64,000 bases of DNA from Agarivorans sp. Toyoura001 (GTDB taxonomy: Bacteria; Pseudomonadota; Gammaproteobacteria; Enterobacterales; Celerinatantimonadaceae): assembly GCF_005405585.1 (NCBI RefSeq), contig NZ_BJEQ01000002.1:62001-126000 (forward strand), given 5' to 3'. A program made the position numbers and the translations under genes. Numbering within the stretch: position 1 is the first letter of the stretch; each line of letters begins with the position of its first letter. Shown in pieces: positions 21,645 to 29,857 of the stretch. The notes under the pieces are model-generated. The model saw only the letters and a list, made by a program, of their open reading frames with translations, had not been told where the DNA came from and made no database searches.

Positions 21645-24488
21645 TTAATTCACTGGAGTAAACTTAATCCAATTAAGGTTAAAGTTACCTTGAAGAATAT
21701 TAATACGCAGAGTTTGGCTGCCACCGCTAATCACAACGTTATTGGTGGTTTGGCTTTGCCAGTTTTGCCACCCTCCCGTTGCGCTTACGCTGGTAATACC
21801 AACAATTTGCTGACCAGCCAACTCAAGGTTATAGCTACCGCCACCAGGGCTTGAAGCAACTCGAACATCAACAGTATAAGTGCCAGCGGCTAAATCTACG
21901 CTGTACTCTAACCATTCGCCCGCTGCCGTCCAACCTACGTTGTAACCGCCACCTACATCAGAGGTCATTTGCAAATCAACATCGTCACTACGGTAGCTGC
22001 CACCCGCATTGCCACTAGTGGTATCGTAGAACTGGGTGTAGTCCTCAGCTTGTACAAGCACTTCGCTTGGCGTGCTAGGATTACCGCCGCCAGTATCACC
22101 ACCGGTGCTGCTACCGCTGTATAGCTTGTACCAATCAAGCAAGGTATCGTTTTGGCCTACATCGCTTTCCAATACAAACTTCAACGCGCTAGCATTGCTG
22201 GCTAAGCTGAAGGTGACTGTTTGCACTGTACGAGTAATACCACTAAAGGTAGCTGTAGCCACTTTTTGCGCGTCAGCATAAATGCTGATACCTGCAGCAG
22301 TGTTATTGCTTGAAGAGCCGTTGATCACCAAGCTATAGTCGCCAGCAGATAAATTACTGCTGTTTACCGTTACCGATTCAGAGTTTCCATAAAGGATTAC
22401 GCCTGCATACGGCGAGGTAATAGGCTGACGATAAGAAGGTGAAATAACACCATCTTCAAATTGCGCCTGTTCAAGCAACTCACCATCAACCGGTGGATTA
22501 GTTGGGTTACCGCCACCATCGTTAGCGCTAACCGTAACGGTTACCGTGCCGTTAGCACTAGCTTGACCATCACTAATGGTGTAACCAAAGCTGTCGCTGC
22601 CAACAAAACCACCATTAGGCGTGTAACTCAGTGCATTGCCAACTTGGCTAACACTGCCGTTACCCGCTTGGGTATAGCTAGTCAGTGATAATGCATCACC
22701 ATCGGCATCACTGTCGTTTTGCAATACTGAAATACTTACCGCAGTATCTTGAGTTGTTGAAGCACTATCGTTGTTGGCTGTTGGTGGGTTATTGCCACCA
22801 GATGGTGGAGGCGTCACCACGTCACATTCACCCGCAGGACAAATAATTCGGTAGTTACCACTTAACGCTAAGAAACCAAACATGTACAAGGTACCGTCGT
22901 AATAGCGGTATTTACCACTTGGTACCGGGGTATCCCAAAGCGCTTGAACAAATTCCCAAGAACGCTGATTGTCTGAGGCCAAACTCGCCACAGCATTCAT
23001 CGATACTAAACCAGGAGAATGATCAGAGTTGTTTTCGTATGGTGTGCCATTTAGCTCATACAAGCTTGAGTAGGAGTCTATACCTTCACCCTTGAAGAAG
23101 CTCTGTAAAGCATTTACATAGGTGGTTTGCCATGGGTCATTCTGCCACCAAGCAAAGTCCATTGCGGCATTACCTACAGTGCGCCAAGCGTCGTATTGGA
23201 AAGTATCTTTCCAATGTTGAAAATCGCCATGTGGTGTGCCGTCAAAGTAAGCGTAATCAGGACTTAAGCCATTTGCCGGATTAACGGTAGACTTTAAGAA
23301 AGCTCGGCTGGTCACAGCTAAATCAGCCCAAAAACTGTTGTTGTTATCGGCCCAACGTGCCCATAGCTCATAAAAAGCGGGCAGGTGATAAGACGGATCA
23401 GTCCAGTTTCTGTCGGTAGGCGTGGCAGGAGAGAATACAATTTGTTTTTCAGCATGGTTAAACAAGCTGAACTCTTCTAACTGGCCTTGGTTGTTATAAC
23501 GCGTCTCACCATTGCCATACATGTCTTTCAAGATCTGGTTAGCTTGTTCACGATAGTTAAAAATACCACTACCGTCACCCCATAAGTTTGAAGCAAAGAA
23601 CAGCGCAGTTACAAAGTATTCTTCACCATCTGGCGCAGGGTTAGCATCTTGAATGTTTCCTGAAGTACTCACCTTCCAGGCAAAATAACCTTTGTTATTA
23701 CCTGATTTATTGAGCGAGTAAGTGTGGGCCCACTTCCATAGTTTATTGAAATCATCTTGGCGACCCATTTGCACCGCCATCATCATCCCGTAAGACATAC
23801 CTTCACTGCGTACGTCGTTATTACCCACATCCCAGATGTAAGCCATATCGTTACCTACTGGGATGAAAATGGCTTTATCGGCAGTATCACTACTATGGAA
23901 TAGTTGGTCGTAAACAGCTTGAACTTTGGCATCTACTTCGGCAGCAGAGTATCCTAATTCTTGGAACATATTACGATACACGCCAGTGTCGTAGGCACCG
24001 GCACTTGGTAGCGCTGGCGCACCAGGAAGTGCCGCTATGTCACCCACTCGGTGTAACTCGTACCAATCTAAAAAGGTATCGTTACTGCCATTATCGGTTT
24101 CAAGCTTAAATTGTAAGGTTGAGTTAGTAGGTTGGCTATCAAGCTTAAAGGTAATGCTGTTAACTGATGCACTGGTTCCTGAAAACTCAGTCGCCCCTAG
24201 CTTTTTCCCATCCAAGTAAACACTGATGCCAGCGGCATTATTCGCACTGCTGGCTCCGCGAATATCTAGCCTAAACTGCCCAGGTACATTACTCAGTTGG
24301 GCTTGGGCTTCTACTCCATCGTTATTAGCATAAGCCGCAACGCCGTTAAATGGGCTGTCGATAGTTCCGGAGTAACCCGGCAATAAGCTGCCATTTTCTA
24401 ACTCAAATTTTTGCAATAACTCGGCTGAGCAAAGCGGCGACAATAGCCCTAAGCTCAGCACCGTTAGCACTGTTTTGTTAAAGATCAT
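21645..24488 (-). CDS. Secreted modular GH8 enzyme (exo-oligoxylanase/xylanase-like), copy 1
   Basis: A 947-residue secreted enzyme. Modules in order: signal peptide (1-22), a CBM35-like beta-sandwich (about 23-150), GH8 catalytic domain (about 165-545), a cadherin/VCBS-type Ig domain (about 560-655), a second CBM35-like module (about 670-795) and a C-terminal CBM6 (about 810-947). The GH8 part carries the catalytic acid in RSEGMSYGMMMAVQMGR, the APDGEEYF strand and FQYDAWR with the likely base, and resembles reducing-end-xylose-releasing exo-oligoxylanase more than endoglucanases from memory of that sequence. It is a tandem paralogue of the gene at 24857-27406 in the first 545 residues. Start at ATG 24488 by AGGA spacing and by match to the paralogue. 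Confidence 0.88.
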   Translation of the reverse strand: MIFNKTVLTVLSLGLLSPLCSAELLQKFELENGSLLPGYSGTIDSPFNGVAAYANNDGVEAQAQLSNVPGQFRLDIRGASSANNAAGISVYLDGKKLGATEFSGTSASVNSITFKLDSQPTNSTLQFKLETDNGSNDTFLDWYELHRVGDIAALPGAPALPSAGAYDTGVYRNMFQELGYSAAEVDAKVQAVYDQLFHSSDTADKAIFIPVGNDMAYIWDVGNNDVRSEGMSYGMMMAVQMGRQDDFNKLWKWAHTYSLNKSGNNKGYFAWKVSTSGNIQDANPAPDGEEYFVTALFFASNLWGDGSGIFNYREQANQILKDMYGNGETRYNNQGQLEEFSLFNHAEKQIVFSPATPTDRNWTDPSYHLPAFYELWARWADNNNSFWADLAVTSRAFLKSTVNPANGLSPDYAYFDGTPHGDFQHWKDTFQYDAWRTVGNAAMDFAWWQNDPWQTTYVNALQSFFKGEGIDSYSSLYELNGTPYENNSDHSPGLVSMNAVASLASDNQRSWEFVQALWDTPVPSGKYRYYDGTLYMFGFLALSGNYRIICPAGECDVVTPPPSGGNNPPTANNDSASTTQDTAVSISVLQNDSDADGDALSLTSYTQAGNGSVSQVGNALSYTPNGGFVGSDSFGYTISDGQASANGTVTVTVSANDGGGNPTNPPVDGELLEQAQFEDGVISPSYRQPITSPYAGVILYGNSESVTVNSSNLSAGDYSLVINGSSSNNTAAGISIYADAQKVATATFSGITRTVQTVTFSLASNASALKFVLESDVGQNDTLLDWYKLYSGSSTGGDTGGGNPSTPSEVLVQAEDYTQFYDTTSGNAGGSYRSDDVDLQMTSDVGGGYNVGWTAAGEWLEYSVDLAAGTYTVDVRVASSPGGGSYNLELAGQQIVGITSVSATGGWQNWQSQTTNNVVISGGSQTLRINILQGNFNLNWIKFTPVN

Positions 24489-24715
24489 TCCTTTTATCCT
24501 CATATCTTGTGTCTGCATAGTGAGCAAGTGCCAAAATATTATTTGGCTAAACCTGCTATTTAGCTCATCAGTTGGAAGAGCTAGCTGTTATTAGTTTTAT
24601 ATGCCGCACAGACCATAGCAGCGACTAAGAAACCGCCAAGAGAAAATGGCAACTAACGTTAGACACAAAAGAAAGATCGTACAAAAAACATCCGAAAGTG
24701 TGACCGACATTAACA

Positions 24716-24856: not shown

Positions 24857-27406
24857 TTAGTTACATACCGTACCATTCACGGTAACTAACTCTGCTGGCG
24901 TATTCACTACACCTTTGTTACCTTGCATTCCAAAGCTCACCGTTTGACCCGGTTGAATAGTAGAATTCCAAGATAATGAGCTAGCGGTGTACGCGTCAGT
25001 ACCAACAAGTTGGGTATTCCAACTGTTGGTCACTGTTGAGCCGTTTGCATAAGCCCAGTTCACTTCCCAGCCATTAATTGCCGCGCTGCCATTGTTAGCA
25101 ATTGTAATACTGGCAACAAAGCCACTATTCCATTCATTATCAATGCTATAGCTACAACTAGCGCCACTACCTGCACTCGTCACAGTAATGCTAGAGGTGA
25201 AACTATCGCTGCCACCATTAGCATCAGTTACCGTTAACTTTGCTTGGTAAGTTCCTGCGCTGGCGTAACTATGGCTAGCAGCTGCACCGGTTGAGCCATT
25301 GGTATCGCCAAAGTCCCAGCTAAAACTTAAGCTGTCATTGTCTACATCGTTAGAGCATGCAGCATCAAAACTCACAGTTTGGCCAACAGTTGCTGCTTCA
25401 CTACTAACACTAAAACATGCGCTTGGCGGATTATTTACGCTAGAATCTTGCACCACAATTGTCACATTAGCGCTGGCGATTTCTTCGCCATCAGTAATAG
25501 TGTAACTAAAGCTATCTTCGCCAAAAAATTCACTATTAGGCGTGTAATTTAAGGTATCACCCACTTGGCTTACTGCACCATTATTTGGCTGAGTAAAGCT
25601 AGCAATGCTTAGGCTATCGCCGTCTAGGTCTCTATCATTGTTTAGCACCGCTACCGTTACTGGCGTATCCTGCTGGGTGCTTGCGCTATCGTTAACAGCC
25701 ACTGGTGGGCGGTTACCCACTGGCGGAGGAGTTACCGCATCACACTCTCCTGCTGGGCAGATAATTTGGTAATTACCACTCAGTGCCAACATACCAAACA
25801 TATACAAAGTGCCATCGTAATAACGCCATTTACCACTTGGTACTGGCGTATCCCATAGCGCTTGTACAAACTCCCAAGAGCGTTGGTTATCTGATGCCAA
25901 ACTGGCCATCGCATTCATTGCCACCAAACCCGGTGAATGGTCAGAGTTGCCTTGATAAGGTGTGCCATTTAACTCATACAAGCTTGAGTAGGAATCAATA
26001 CCTTCACCTTTAAAAAAGGTTTGTAAACTATTCACATAAGTGGTTTGCCATGGGTCATTGTTCCACCAAGCAAAGTCCATGGCCGCATTACCCACGGTGC
26101 GCCATGCATCGTATTGGAAGGTCACTTTATGCGCTTGAAACTCGCCATGTGGGCGACCATCAAAATAAGCATAATCAGGACTCAAGCCATTCTCTGCATT
26201 CACTGTGGTTTTTAGAAACGCGCGGCTAGTAAGCGCTAAGTCAGCCCAAAAGCTGTTGTTGTTATCCGCCCAACGCGCCCATAACTCGTAAAACGCAGGC
26301 AAGTGGTAAGAAGGGTCTGTCCAATTTCTATCGCTTGGCGTGGCAGGAGAAAATACAATTTGTTTGTCTTCATGGCTAAACAAACTGAACTCTTCTAACT
26401 GGCCTTGGTTGTTGTAGCGAGTTTGGCCGTTACCGTACATATCTTTTAAGATTTGGTTGGCTTGCTCACGGTAGTTGTAAATACCGCTTCCATCGCCCCA
26501 GCGATTAGAGGCAAAAAACAGCGCGGTAGCGAAGTATTCTTCACCATCTGGTGCAGGGTTGGCATCTTGCACATTACCCGCAGTACTCACTTTCCAGGCA
26601 AAGTAACCTTTGTTATTGCCTGATTTATTGAGTGAATAGGTATGGGCCCACTTCCATAATTTGTTGAAGTCTTCTTGACGGCCCATTTGTACCGCCATCA
26701 TCATGCCGTAAGACATTCCTTCACTGCGCACATCGTTATTACCGACATCCCAGATATAGGCCATATCATTGCCAACTGGGATGAAAATAGCTTGATTGGT
26801 CGTATCGGTGCTGTGGAATAACTGGTCGTAAACCGCTTGTACTTTGGCATCCACTTCGGCTTTAGAATAGCCGAGTTCTTGGAACAAATTTCGGTAAATA
26901 CCGCTCTCATAAGCGCCAGTATTTGGTAATACAGGAGCAGCAGGAAGCGACGCTATATCTCCAACACGGTGCAATTCAAACCAATCTAAATAGGTGTCAT
27001 TGCTACCGTTATCGCTTTCTAACTTAAACTGTAAGGTTGATGAGCTGGTTTGTGCATCTAACTTGAAGTTGATACTGCTTACCGATGCGGCCGTACCCGA
27101 AAACTCGGTAGAGCCGAGTTTTTTGTCGCCCAAATACACACTAATACCTGCGGCATTATTGGCACTACTCGCCCCGCGAATATCGAGCCTAAACTGCCCT
27201 GGAACATTACTTAATTGAGCTTGAACCTCTACGCCATCGTTATTAGCATAAGCAGCAATACCATTAAATGGGCTATCGATGGCACTTGAGTAACCTGGCA
27301 GTAAGCTGCCATTTTCTAACTCAAATTTTTGTAAGACTTCAGCTGAGCTTAGTGGCGATATTAATGCAGCGCTCAACACAGCAAGTCCGTAAGGTTTAAA
27401 GATCAT
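24857..27406 (-). CDS. Secreted modular GH8 enzyme (exo-oligoxylanase/xylanase-like), copy 2
   Basis: An 849-residue secreted enzyme. Order of modules: signal peptide (1-22), CBM35-like module (23-150), GH8 domain (about 165-545) with the same RSEGMSYGMMMAVQMGR, APDGEEYF and FQYDAWR motifs as copy 1, an Ig/VCBS-type domain (about 560-655), a PKD domain (about 660-745, with DVDNDSLSFSWDFGD) and a C-terminal CBM2 (about 750-849) with cysteines at both ends. The loop SDHSPGL aligns with the Leu-His-Pro loop that closes the aglycone side in characterised GH8 exo-oligoxylanase. It should act on xylan-derived chains outside the cell, held to cellulose or xylan by CBM2. Copies 1 and 2 share their N-terminal two thirds but not their C-terminal modules. 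Confidence 0.88.
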   Translation of the reverse strand: MIFKPYGLAVLSAALISPLSSAEVLQKFELENGSLLPGYSSAIDSPFNGIAAYANNDGVEVQAQLSNVPGQFRLDIRGASSANNAAGISVYLGDKKLGSTEFSGTAASVSSINFKLDAQTSSSTLQFKLESDNGSNDTYLDWFELHRVGDIASLPAAPVLPNTGAYESGIYRNLFQELGYSKAEVDAKVQAVYDQLFHSTDTTNQAIFIPVGNDMAYIWDVGNNDVRSEGMSYGMMMAVQMGRQEDFNKLWKWAHTYSLNKSGNNKGYFAWKVSTAGNVQDANPAPDGEEYFATALFFASNRWGDGSGIYNYREQANQILKDMYGNGQTRYNNQGQLEEFSLFSHEDKQIVFSPATPSDRNWTDPSYHLPAFYELWARWADNNNSFWADLALTSRAFLKTTVNAENGLSPDYAYFDGRPHGEFQAHKVTFQYDAWRTVGNAAMDFAWWNNDPWQTTYVNSLQTFFKGEGIDSYSSLYELNGTPYQGNSDHSPGLVAMNAMASLASDNQRSWEFVQALWDTPVPSGKWRYYDGTLYMFGMLALSGNYQIICPAGECDAVTPPPVGNRPPVAVNDSASTQQDTPVTVAVLNNDRDLDGDSLSIASFTQPNNGAVSQVGDTLNYTPNSEFFGEDSFSYTITDGEEIASANVTIVVQDSSVNNPPSACFSVSSEAATVGQTVSFDAACSNDVDNDSLSFSWDFGDTNGSTGAAASHSYASAGTYQAKLTVTDANGGSDSFTSSITVTSAGSGASCSYSIDNEWNSGFVASITIANNGSAAINGWEVNWAYANGSTVTNSWNTQLVGTDAYTASSLSWNSTIQPGQTVSFGMQGNKGVVNTPAELVTVNGTVCN

Positions 27407-27746: not shown

Positions 27747-28457
27747 TTATGCACTCGGCAAATCAAACCAAAGCGCTTCTAAAGAATAATTTTCTGTCGT
27801 GATAGTTAGCGCTTGCTCTCCTGATACCCCTACTCCATCACCAGGTCGAACCGTGTGGGCAGAACCAGAAAGCTGCTGCAAATTTGCCGCGCCACTTATT
27901 ACCTGCAAATAACCACAGGCTTTCATCACTTCAAGCTCAAAAGATTGATCTGGTGCTAGCACCAAACGATAAAGGGCTGCGTCTTGCTGCATCACCAATG
28001 AGCCATCGCGGCCGTCTGGTGTCACTAACGCGGTAAGCATTGAATCTTGCTGGATAGTAGCCTGCTGATAACGGGGGGCTAATCCATTGTGTTGTGGCTT
28101 TATCCAAATTTGTAGAAACTCCAAGGCATCAGAGCTACTGGCATTGTATTCGGAGTGACTGACACCAGTGCCTGCGCTCATCACTTGAATGTCTCCAGCT
28201 GGCACCTGGTACTTATTACCCATACTATCGATATGCTCAACCGCACCTTTGGTAACGTAAGAGATAATTTCCATATCGCGATGTTGGTGAGTATCAAATC
28301 CTTTACCAGGCGCGACTTGGTCCTGGTTTATCACCCGTAGCACTGAATATCCCATATGCTGAGGATCATGATAATTAGCAAATGAAAAGCTGTGTTGGCT
28401 TTTAAGCCATCCCAAGTCTGCAGATCCACGCTCATGCGCAGCTCGAAAATAATGCAT
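27747..28457 (-). CDS. Pirin family protein
   Basis: A 236-residue bicupin of the pirin/YhhW group. The N-terminal cupin contains the metal-binding set HQHRDMEI and, further on, SHSEYN (two His, one His and a Glu), and the family hallmark LGWLKSQHSFSFANYHDP is represented near residue 15-30. Some members are quercetin 2,3-dioxygenases; the natural substrate is unknown. I start at ATG 28457 (MHYFRAAHERG), preceded by GAGGAG; the open frame extends to 28517. Confidence 0.9.
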   Translation of the reverse strand: MHYFRAAHERGSADLGWLKSQHSFSFANYHDPQHMGYSVLRVINQDQVAPGKGFDTHQHRDMEIISYVTKGAVEHIDSMGNKYQVPAGDIQVMSAGTGVSHSEYNASSSDALEFLQIWIKPQHNGLAPRYQQATIQQDSMLTALVTPDGRDGSLVMQQDAALYRLVLAPDQSFELEVMKACGYLQVISGAANLQQLSGSAHTVRPGDGVGVSGEQALTITTENYSLEALWFDLPSA

Positions 28458-28627
28458 AGTTAACGCTACTCCTCTTTTGCCCGCAATATTCGCTAAGGCT
28501 TTGCTATTTATACGCATTTACCAACAAAAACGTTTTAAACAGCCTAAGTATTTTTGGTTCCTCTTTGCCTAGACCAGATTTATCTCAATCACTATTCAAG
28601 TAATTATGGGTGTAGCACTCATTTTTT

Positions 28628-28642
28628 GATATTATTTAAGCG
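28628..28642 (+). promoter_or_regulatory. Possible extended -10 promoter of the RsgA leader transcript
   Basis: TGATATTAT at 28628-28635 has the TGnTATnnT form of an extended -10 element; the -35 position is poor. It would start a transcript near 28642, upstream of the leader peptide at 28670. Confidence 0.35.
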
Positions 28643-28669
28643 ATTTTTAGTCAATAGCGAGGATACAAA

Positions 28670-28711
28670 ATGATTGTAATCAACACTCCACGGGCTCAGG
28701 AACAAGCGTAA
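28670..28711 (+). CDS. 13-residue leader peptide upstream of the RsgA paralogue
   Basis: ATG at 28670 with GAGGAT seven bases upstream encodes MIVINTPRAQEQA and ends in a double TAA (28709-28714). It is short, has a good ribosome-binding site and lies directly before a set of mutually exclusive hairpins, as transcription-attenuation leader peptides do. Codons CCA CGG GCT (Pro-Arg-Ala) lie inside the first pairing segment, so ribosome position there would control folding. Confidence 0.55.
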   Translation: MIVINTPRAQEQA

Positions 28712-28773
28712 TAACTCTCTCCTGCTCAGCCCGGTAATCACCGGGGCGTAATAACGACCCCTATATTATTTTT
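28691..28773 (+). promoter_or_regulatory. Attenuator-like set of four pairing segments before the RsgA paralogue
   Basis: Segment 1 CGGGCT (28691-28696, inside the leader peptide) pairs with segment 2 AGCCCG (28728-28733). Segment 2 also pairs, as CCCGGT (28730-28735), with segment 3 ACCGGG (28740-28745) around loop AATC. Segment 3, as GGGGCG (28743-28748), pairs with segment 4 CGACCCC (28755-28761, one bulged A) followed by TATATTATTTTT. So 1:2 plus 3:4 gives a terminator and 2:3 an antiterminator. The T run is interrupted, so termination may be partial. Confidence 0.5.
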
Positions 28774-28804
28774 ACATAGCACCAGTGTGCTTGGGGTAAT
28801 CTCA

Positions 28805-29857
28805 ATGGGTAATTCTTTTTCTCTATCTCAACTTGGATGGAAACCCTTTTTTCAACAACAACTTACTTTAGACGAACTTGATTCGTGTATACCTGCTCGC
28901 GTATTTGAGCAACACCGCAGTGAATACGTGGTAGCAACTGAAACTGCCATGCAACGTATTAGCATTACACCTAACATGCCTAAGATGGCAGTGGGTGACT
29001 GGCTACTGTTAGATGAAAACAATGGCGAGCCTAGGTTTTGTAAACACTTAGATCCGGCGACCTTATTTAGTCGAAAGGCAGTAGGTACACGCGCTGAATT
29101 GCAGCTAATTGCCGCTAACGTAGATACGGTGTTTATTGTTTGTTCCTTAAACAACAACTTTAACCTAAGTCGTATAGAACGCTATTTAGCAATGGCTAAC
29201 GACGCTAACGTTGACCCAGTAGTAGTGTTAAGTAAAGCCGATACTTGCAACGACGTACCGCACTATGTTCAACAGGTACAACTGTTAGACCCCATGTTAC
29301 TGGTTGAAGCAGTAAATGCGCTTGATACTCAAGACGTTGCCAAACTAGAGCCCTGGTGTAAACAAGGCCAAACAGTGGCGTTTATGGGATCTTCTGGTGT
29401 TGGTAAATCAACCTTAATCAATACCCTGTTAGGTGAGCAAAGCAGTGAAACCGCAGCCATTAGAGAAGCTGATAGTAAAGGTCGTCACACCACTACTGCT
29501 CGCGCTATGCATTTAATGACCAAAGGCGGATTATTGCTAGATACACCGGGCATGCGAGAGTTACAACTTAGCGATTGTGAAGAGGGGGTAAACGCCACCT
29601 TTAATGACATCACTGAATTAGCTCAACAGTGCAAGTTTGGTGATTGCCAACACAACAGCGAACCTGGCTGCCAAGTTAGGCTGGCGATTAACAAGGGTGA
29701 ATTAGAAGAGCGCCGACTGATTAATTATCAAAAGCTAATGCGCGAACAGCAGTTTAACGCCGCTAGCATTGCTGAAAGGCGATTTGCCGATAAAGAACTA
29801 GGAAAGTTCTACCGACGAGTTCAAAACAGTAGCAAGCAGTTTAAACAGGGCGGTTAA
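28805..29857 (+). CDS. rsgA: RsgA-family ribosome small-subunit-dependent GTPase (second-type paralogue)
   Basis: A 350-residue circularly permuted GTPase. Order: N-terminal OB-fold (about 20-100), GTPase domain with G4 (VVLSKAD) before G1 (GSSGVGKSTLIN), a G2 region (GRHTTTAR) and G3 (DTPGMREL), then a C-terminal zinc motif Cys-x4-Cys-x-His-x5-Cys (CKFGDCQHNSEPGC). RsgA releases late-maturation factors from the 30S subunit. The N-terminus is not the E. coli YjeQ type, so this is probably a second paralogue. Start is the ATG at 28805, preceded by GGGG; the open frame runs upstream to 28787. It is preceded by a leader peptide and attenuator-like hairpins. Confidence 0.9.
   Translation: MGNSFSLSQLGWKPFFQQQLTLDELDSCIPARVFEQHRSEYVVATETAMQRISITPNMPKMAVGDWLLLDENNGEPRFCKHLDPATLFSRKAVGTRAELQLIAANVDTVFIVCSLNNNFNLSRIERYLAMANDANVDPVVVLSKADTCNDVPHYVQQVQLLDPMLLVEAVNALDTQDVAKLEPWCKQGQTVAFMGSSGVGKSTLINTLLGEQSSETAAIREADSKGRHTTTARAMHLMTKGGLLLDTPGMRELQLSDCEEGVNATFNDITELAQQCKFGDCQHNSEPGCQVRLAINKGELEERRLINYQKLMREQQFNAASIAERRFADKELGKFYRRVQNSSKQFKQGG

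Follow-up and report, generated by a model that had tools for sequence, protein, structure and literature searches.

The window analysed here, a stretch of 64,000 nucleotides (nt) of Agarivorans sp. Toyoura001 (contig NZ_BJEQ01000002.1, positions 62,001 to 126,000), contains a gene for a second RsgA-type GTPase, designated rsgA2 (28805-29857, + strand), and the question raised by this locus is whether, and how, the short leader upstream of the gene controls its expression. The best overall explanation, which we consider fairly probable, is that the interval 28659-28805 is a translational attenuator read by ribosomes and built of five alternating segments, the last of which is the Shine-Dalgarno (SD) sequence of rsgA2. 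The attenuator architecture and its polarity, which have computational support, are held with somewhat greater confidence and are regarded as likely. These assessments rest mainly on the pairing of segments 1 and 2 (1:2), the position of the SD and models of ribosome position. An earlier reading made from the sequence alone (the sequence-only reading) had instead proposed a four-segment attenuator in which a stalled ribosome would prevent a terminator and so raise GTPase expression.

The rsgA2 product has 350 amino acids from the ATG at 28805 and, by domain scores above the curated cut-offs, belongs to the RsgA GTPase family (PF03193, 6.1e-49, 166.6 bits, cut-off 30; TIGR00157, 160.7 bits, cut-off 100). 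Another RsgA, 35% identical to the rsgA2 product over residues 88-321, is encoded in the same genome, so the gene at 28805-29857 is a second copy and was named accordingly; the earlier description of the downstream gene as an RsgA paralogue is borne out by these matches and by the second RsgA elsewhere in the genome. A search of the defence library returned weak, generic GTPase matches only.

Leader layout and the fifth segment

All elements of the leader lie on the + strand. The leader SD, GAGGAT (28659-28664), has SD-like counterparts 5' of the leader in relatives and precedes a leader open reading frame (ORF) of 13 codons, MIVINTPRAQEQA (28670-28711, with the ATG at 28670 and a TAA at 28709-28711), which was recognised from the sequence and from relatives and is followed by a second, tandem TAA stop (28712-28714). 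The ORF opens with the start motif AUGANUGU (28670-28677), which reads Met-Ile-Val here, and contains segment 1, CGGGCTCAGGA (28691-28701), supported by the swap and slide tests described below. Segment 2 (28720-28735) can pair with segment 1 through 28720-28733 (TCCTG..AGCCCG) or with segment 3 through 28730-28735 (CCCGGT). Segment 3 (28740-28749) can pair with segment 2 through 28740-28745 (ACCGGG) or with segment 4 through 28743-28749, and segment 4, ACGACCCC (28754-28761), can pair with segment 3, the 3:4 pairing lying within 28743-28761, or with the rsgA2 SD through its CCCC. The 13-codon leader with its SD and double stop, and segments 1 to 4 with the alternatives 1:2, 2:3 and 3:4, had all been placed correctly by the sequence-only reading, and the segments are conserved in relatives.

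The feature that it missed is a fifth segment, TTGGGGT (28791-28797), which includes the rsgA2 SD GGGG (28793-28796) and was placed by its anti-SD match and by a scan of 4:5 registers; in the window, the 4:5 complementarity is that of the segment 4 CCCC with the SD GGGG. With segment 5 defined as whichever GGG or AGG lies closest to the start codon, the best anti-SD match before rsgA2 overlapped it in 38 of 38 leaders. Segments 3, 4 and 5 read GGGG, CCCC and GGGG in the window, GGGTTTCC, GGAAACCC and AGGGTTT in Microbulbifer leaders such as L039 and L040, and GGGATTC, GAATCCC and TTGGGAT in L112 and L116. The indications for a 4:5 pairing are accordingly its register, these exchanged segments and where the SD lies; the swap test is not among them.

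The fold of the single leader sequence is unremarkable (z = -1.58, with 12 of 200 shuffles folding equally well), so the case rests on relatives. No Rfam covariance model matched the window at its gathering threshold, or 28600-28850 when E values up to 10 were allowed, and a search of the open-access literature by title, with most subscription journals outside its coverage, found no description of this leader.

An SD as segment 5 makes the proposed switch translational, and the count of five segments gives it a sign opposite to that of the earlier proposal: a ribosome covering segment 1 should lower expression, whereas stalling at CCA CGG GCT (codons 7-9) had been expected to raise it. These codons differ from species to species, and segment 2 differs correspondingly, so there is no conserved run of sensed codons. 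The transcriptional alternative, in which 3:4 would terminate transcription intrinsically and a ribosome stalled at codons 7-9 would allow read-through, draws on the existence of segments 1-4 and on a T-rich run (28764-28774), read previously as the terminator tail, that follows 3:4 in the window as TATATTATTTTTA. The run is present, but it is not kept in the genus or beyond: of 36 representatives, 6 have at least five T after 3:4, where shuffled leaders have them in about 10% of cases, and a terminator scan did not report 3:4. An intrinsic terminator at 3:4 was rejected on these grounds. Because transcription attenuation would also leave the SD as segment 5 unexplained and would have no 3:4 in either of the three-segment leaders described below, it is regarded as extremely improbable.

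Comparative tests of the pairing

Loci of rsgA2 were taken from GTDB genomes (65 loci) and from genomes of the genus, the order (best of 48 matching genomes) and the class. A leader was defined by an SD-like sequence before an ORF of 9-26 codons in which 5 nt or more are complementary to segment 2; by this definition 66 of 112 RsgA-type loci have one, near-identical loci being kept in the count. Sixty leaders, 58 with five segments and two with three, were chosen for the covariation set; those whose spacers are very long or whose upstream part is cut off, L036, L041, L042, L048, L051, L076, L078-L080 and L092 among them, were left out. A MAFFT alignment of 19 leaders misplaced the segments, so pairs were counted on anchored segments in Python.

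The segments diverge in sequence yet remain complementary in Photobacterium, Vibrio, Amphritea, Microbulbifer, Zooshikella and others. In the swap test, partners were permuted 20000 times among 36 representatives, less than 85% identical over the segments, of the 58 five-segment leaders. No permutation was as good as the native 1:2 partners, also when Microbulbifer and Zooshikella were removed (26 rows). The corresponding figures were 0 for 3:4 (37 representatives, with segment 4 chosen by 4:5) and 10 without the two genera, 8 for 2:3, and 28 for 4:5 with 330 without them. The controls 1:3 (9528) and 2:5 (13914) were null, as was 1:4 (9835), which was taken from an earlier extraction with segment 4 misplaced in at least L005, L029 and L031. 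The swap test thus proves 1:2 and supports 3:4; by itself it cannot prove 4:5.

In the slide test, 71% of 1:2 positions were paired in register against at most 48% when slid, and 85% against at most 61% for 2:3; the best registers stood above their neighbours for 3:4 (67%, neighbours at most 58%) and 4:5 (71%, neighbours at most 57%). Cells of 2:3 that had changed on both sides numbered 26 in register and at most 8 when slid. Covariation, which the sequence-only reading had put forward as the check on all three helices, is thus clear for 1:2 and supported for 3:4, but 2:3 hardly varies outside Microbulbifer and Zooshikella.

Predicted direction of the switch and the start motif

The direction of the switch was modelled as SD exposure, the probability that the G's of the SD are unpaired, with a ribosome footprint of -15 to +15 nt around the first P-site base at each leader codon. 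Mean exposure over 42 leaders was 0.24 with no ribosome, 0.27, 0.28 and 0.24 at codons 1, 2 and 3, 0.13 at codon 4 and 0.10-0.14 at codons 5-12. The most exposed state was the ribosome-free one or one of codons 1-3 in 33 of the 42 leaders and a later codon in 9. Exposure at codon 6 minus that at codon 2 averaged -0.169. Of the 42 leaders, 37 had a negative difference and 25 one below -0.1, while no leader exceeded +0.1; the average was +0.008 over 252 dinucleotide shuffles that kept the SD, and none of 20000 resampled means was as low as the native one. When masks were instead measured from the leader start (38 leaders), moving the edge from 22 to 34 reduced exposure in 34 leaders and increased it in 4. 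In the window, exposure peaked at codons 2-3 (0.26-0.28) and was about 0.1 or less from codon 5.

Two leaders of one clade, L015 (Ferrimonas) and L068 (Marinobacter), lack segments 3 and 4 and have a three-segment form in which segment 2 directly faces the SD; in L015 these read GCCCGGAC and GTCCGGGA. Predicted SD exposure fell from 0.24 without a mask to 0.02 with a mask edge at 34 in L015, and from 0.30 to 0.04 in L068. The number of segments stays odd, so that covering segment 1 would still hide the SD.

With 1:2 and 3:4 formed, the SD would be free and rsgA2 translatable (ON). A ribosome over segment 1, with its P site from about codon 4 to the leader end, would let 2:3 and 4:5 form and hide the SD (OFF), while a leader free of ribosomes, or with one halted at codons 1-3, would keep segment 1 free and rsgA2 ON. 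Efficient leader translation would keep rsgA2 off, and failed initiation, or failed passage of the first codons (AUGANUGU, Met-Ile-Val), would turn it on; a ribosome factor would thus be made when fully competent ribosomes are scarce. What was computed comprises the conserved leader, a 1:2 pairing kept through sequence change, the SD as segment 5, the predicted direction of the toggle and the association with one gene; translation of the leader and formation of the structures in the cell are inferred.

The start motif bears on the natural signal. The pattern [A/G]UGANUGU, mostly encoding Met-Ile-Val and with GUG as the start in one case, was found in 65 of the 66 leaders, which had been chosen without requiring it; the sole leader outside it is L020, AUGAUAGU. 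Conservation of the peptide, which the sequence-only reading had also named as a check, holds for this start, but much of the remaining peptide varies. In 58 distinct leaders, selected with GT and Val required and with an ORF filter of 9-20 codons, codon 2 was ATT in 51, AGT in 5, AAT in 1 and ATA in 1 (Ile, Ser or Asn), and codon 3 was GTA in 44, GTT in 7, GTG in 4 and GTC in 3, which is Val in all. The GU of codon 3 was present in 66 of 66 leaders of the set that did not require it, and the third base of codon 2 was U in 65 of 66 and never C. This U, together with the varying middle base, favours a constraint at the level of RNA or decoding over a plain peptide one. The leaders had 10-17 codons, and in 50 of 58 a distance of 21 or 24 nt separated the A of the AUG from the segment-1 triplet [C/T/A]GG. 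Given the usual footprint, which we take to apply here, a ribosome with codon 3 in the P site would end about where segment 1 begins, and the start motif stops close to the point at which the model changes from ON to OFF.

Lost initiation on the leader, or a ribosome halted in its first codons, is offered tentatively as the natural signal. In E. coli, RsgA is described as assisting the folding of the 30S decoding centre (PMC4436671), and a screen that produced each E. coli protein is reported to have found that RsgA inactivates ribosomes and inhibits phage T4 (PMC10475562). Switching on at failed initiation would fit a factor that assists late 30S maturation, and a ribosome-inactivating, T4-inhibiting RsgA would make it useful to silence such a gene while translation is normal. 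A cis-acting sensor of ribosome competence, in which failure to start on or pass AUG-ANU-GUN would cause the second RsgA to mature small subunits, or at high level to idle them, is accordingly put forward as a speculative possibility, more doubtful than the signal itself.

A narrower form of the translational attenuator would be an early-arrest switch, in which some drug, metabolite or stress would park a ribosome specifically at Met-Ile-Val, with codon 3 in the P site and just short of segment 1, so that it bars others from segment 1 and keeps rsgA2 ON, whereas without an inducer leader translation would keep the gene OFF. It would account for the Val at codon 3 written with four codons (58 of 58 leaders, with Val required there, and GU in 66 of 66 elsewhere), for the triplet spacing, by which a codon-3 ribosome would presumably end at segment 1, and for the peak of window SD exposure at codons 2-3. 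We nevertheless think it rather unlikely, as codon 2 with its Ile, Ser or Asn and its third-base U, never C, better fits a constraint on the RNA, and three residues would be unusually short for an arrest peptide.

A switch that under some condition stalls ribosomes over segment 1 at a recurrent x-[K/N]-T-x-R, lowering RsgA2 as feedback, would have the predicted polarity, and Thr, encoded by ACC in 16 leaders and by ACT in 12, lies two residues before the segment-1 codon in 28 of 55. Such stalling appears improbable, since half of the leaders have another residue in place of Thr and much of the remaining peptide varies. Less probable still is a leader ORF that is a mere loading site, with AUGANUGU as a protein- or RNA-binding element whose partner exerts the control and ribosomes secondary. 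The third-base U of codon 2 and the UUG, GUG or AUG at leader nt 5-7 (65 of 66 leaders each) would suit a binding element, but the SD before each leader, the length of 10-17 codons and the spacing of the segment-1 triplet (21 or 24 nt in 50 of 58) would not, and neither would a codon 3 whose third base varies. Leader nt 5-7 form a start-like NUG that lies in another frame and overlaps the start region; a second minigene in that frame was considered, but by eye the frame meets an immediate stop in some leaders and runs longer in others.

Several results weigh against the five-segment translational attenuator. The window's ribosome-free state, which should be ON, is predicted to be mostly closed (0.04), because the leader ACTCCA (28685-28690) can pair with TGGGGT (28792-28797). 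The predicted ON-state exposure is modest (mean about 0.25), some leaders, L034, L044 and L077 among them, show little or no modelled change, and the folding models ignore co-transcriptional kinetics. In the swap test, the 2:3 figure rose to 4258 without Microbulbifer and Zooshikella, largely because 2:3 hardly varies, and the 3:5 control was not null: at 28 of 20000 it equalled 4:5, and at 5 without the two genera it lay below it, so that shared ancestry or composition drives part of the swap figures. Within Microbulbifer and Zooshikella (10-11 rows) the figures were 430 for 1:2, 1395 for 2:3, 350 for 4:5 and 14791 for 3:4, against 1723, 1132 and 14812 for the controls 1:3, 3:5 and 2:5. Cells of 1:2 changed on both sides numbered 34 in register and up to 37 when slid. 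The 3:4 and 4:5 registers are the best of those scanned, and the two ways of picking segment 4 agreed exactly in 29 of 58 leaders, the others being mostly 1-2 bases off and some elsewhere; in the final extraction segment 4 is apparently still misplaced in L093. Finally, the leader is patchy, being seen by eye in 9 of the 18 class genomes that have rsgA2.

Distribution among relatives and surrounding features

The gene was found in 6 of 7 same-genus genomes, 48 of 295 order genomes and 18 of 369 class genomes, and the leader with its segments is kept in all five other same-genus genomes having rsgA2; the one same-genus genome without an rsgA2 match (E up to 1e-60) had no leader-pattern match either. 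Qualifying leaders occur, among others, in Photobacterium, Vibrio, Amphritea, Ferrimonas, Marinobacter, Microbulbifer, Zooshikella, Pleionea and Parendozoicomonas. No qualifying ORF was found in 18 loci that have CCCGG..GGG, and 28 further loci lack CCCGG..GGG. By eye, a leader was recognised in eight extra loci, seven of them with CCCGG..GGG (L074, L077, L085, L095, L112, L113 and L116) and one without it (L114).

Patterns of the leader that used no gene information matched 5 of 369 class genomes in their strict form and 8 of 295 order genomes in their relaxed form, the window's genome in both. Every match was directly upstream of rsgA2, and a reversed control pattern gave none. Neither search found the element before other genes, the patterns covering the CGGG type of segment 1 and not the TGGG, CACCCGG and GCAGGCC types. 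In the searches made, the leader element is associated with rsgA2 alone.

In a tree of RsgA2 proteins (106 rows, with loci including L022, L054, L058, L063, L064 and L065 left out beforehand), leader-bearing rows are spread across many branches, and a nine-row leader-less group, which includes Shewanella, Pseudoalteromonas, Vibrio inusitatus and Aliivibrio (L027, L091), is nested among them. Because of this nesting, the tree is suggestive, and only suggestive, of a leader that is old and has been lost more than once, the deep forks being open. In this group, transcriptional control has perhaps replaced the leader. Just upstream of rsgA2 in the leader-less L014, L019, L023, L025 and L094, the end of an AraC-type-like gene was seen by eye, together with a conserved GTCGGAAATRTTCAAT-type stretch. 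Apparent decay was also seen by eye: an SD and MIVAMPH* remain in L084 (G178) with the segments gone, and L046 (Microbulbifer mangrovi) retains a 2:3-like hairpin but yielded no leader ORF.

Between segments 4 and 5 of the window lies a small hairpin, AGCAC/GTGCT (28778-28791, + strand), whose GCAC and GTGC cores are aligned in 6 of 6 same-genus sequences. A TATTAT (28630-28635, + strand), possibly a -10 box, was seen by eye in 5 of 6 same-genus sequences; a sigma-70 scan gave no site there. The direct repeat GCGTAATAAC at 28706 and 28746, which had been counted as part of the layout, is present but occurs in none of five same-genus relatives and is therefore incidental. Pairing of the leader start with the rsgA2 SD and start ('0:5') was tried as a general feature and rejected (swap figure 4620 of 20000 without the L112 clade, 757 of 20000 with it). 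In L112, L113, L114 and L116 the first bases of the leader are complementary to the rsgA2 SD and start region and pair with them in the minimum free energy structure, a possible extra direct lock. A pirin-type gene (27747-28517) is divergent from the leader, and beside it, on the minus strand, 21645-24527 and 24857-27406 encode adjacent long paralogous proteins that by appearance are secreted and glycoside hydrolase-like.

Comparison with known systems

The rsgA2 product shares the RsgA GTPase domain with E. coli RsgA (YjeQ) and differs from it as a divergent second copy, present in 48 of 295 order and 18 of 369 class genomes, with its own putative attenuator. Most known leader peptides that respond to the behaviour of ribosomes belong to resistance genes and amino-acid operons; here such a leader, widespread but patchy in Gammaproteobacteria, would precede a ribosome-assembly GTPase and would raise the question of whether a cell detects its initiation-competent ribosomes and tunes 30S assembly accordingly.

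Attenuators of the trp and his type have segments 1-4, with segment 1 in a leader ORF and 1:2, 2:3 and 3:4 as alternatives. The rsgA2 leader resembles them in its segments 1-4, in segment 1 lying within the leader ORF and in the alternating pairs, and differs in that it has no conserved terminator U-tract and in that its final segment is an SD. No cognate codon run like that of amino-acid operon attenuators was found in the leader peptides, in which codons 4-7 vary widely. Control of the ornithine decarboxylase gene speF in Salmonella involves an upstream leader ORF. The speF mRNA is described as taking alternative conformations (PMC6386406), a likeness drawn from that description and not from sequence. 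Signal and target differ between the two systems.

The ermC attenuator has four segments, against five or three here. Stalling induces ermC, whereas in the rsgA2 leader stalling in segment 1 would repress; the target here is a ribosome-assembly GTPase for which no inducer is known. As far as PMC5418344 describes it, translation of the ermC leader is the OFF state, and on that description the two systems share a short, SD-preceded leader ORF containing segment 1, alternative mRNA structures, sequestration of the target ribosome-binding site and a leader translation that would mean OFF. As in ermC, mutually exclusive helices end in the target SD, with 1:2 firmly established and 4:5 indicated by register, exchange and SD position. 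Masking segment 1, with five segments or with three, was predicted to hide the SD in 37 of 42 leaders rather than to expose it. The SD-hiding logic would thus be opposite in sign to that of ermC, with a near-invariant start motif at the predicted boundary, and if this is true the rsgA2 leaders would form an attenuator family of reversed polarity that has survived the exchange of whole segments and a change between five segments and three.

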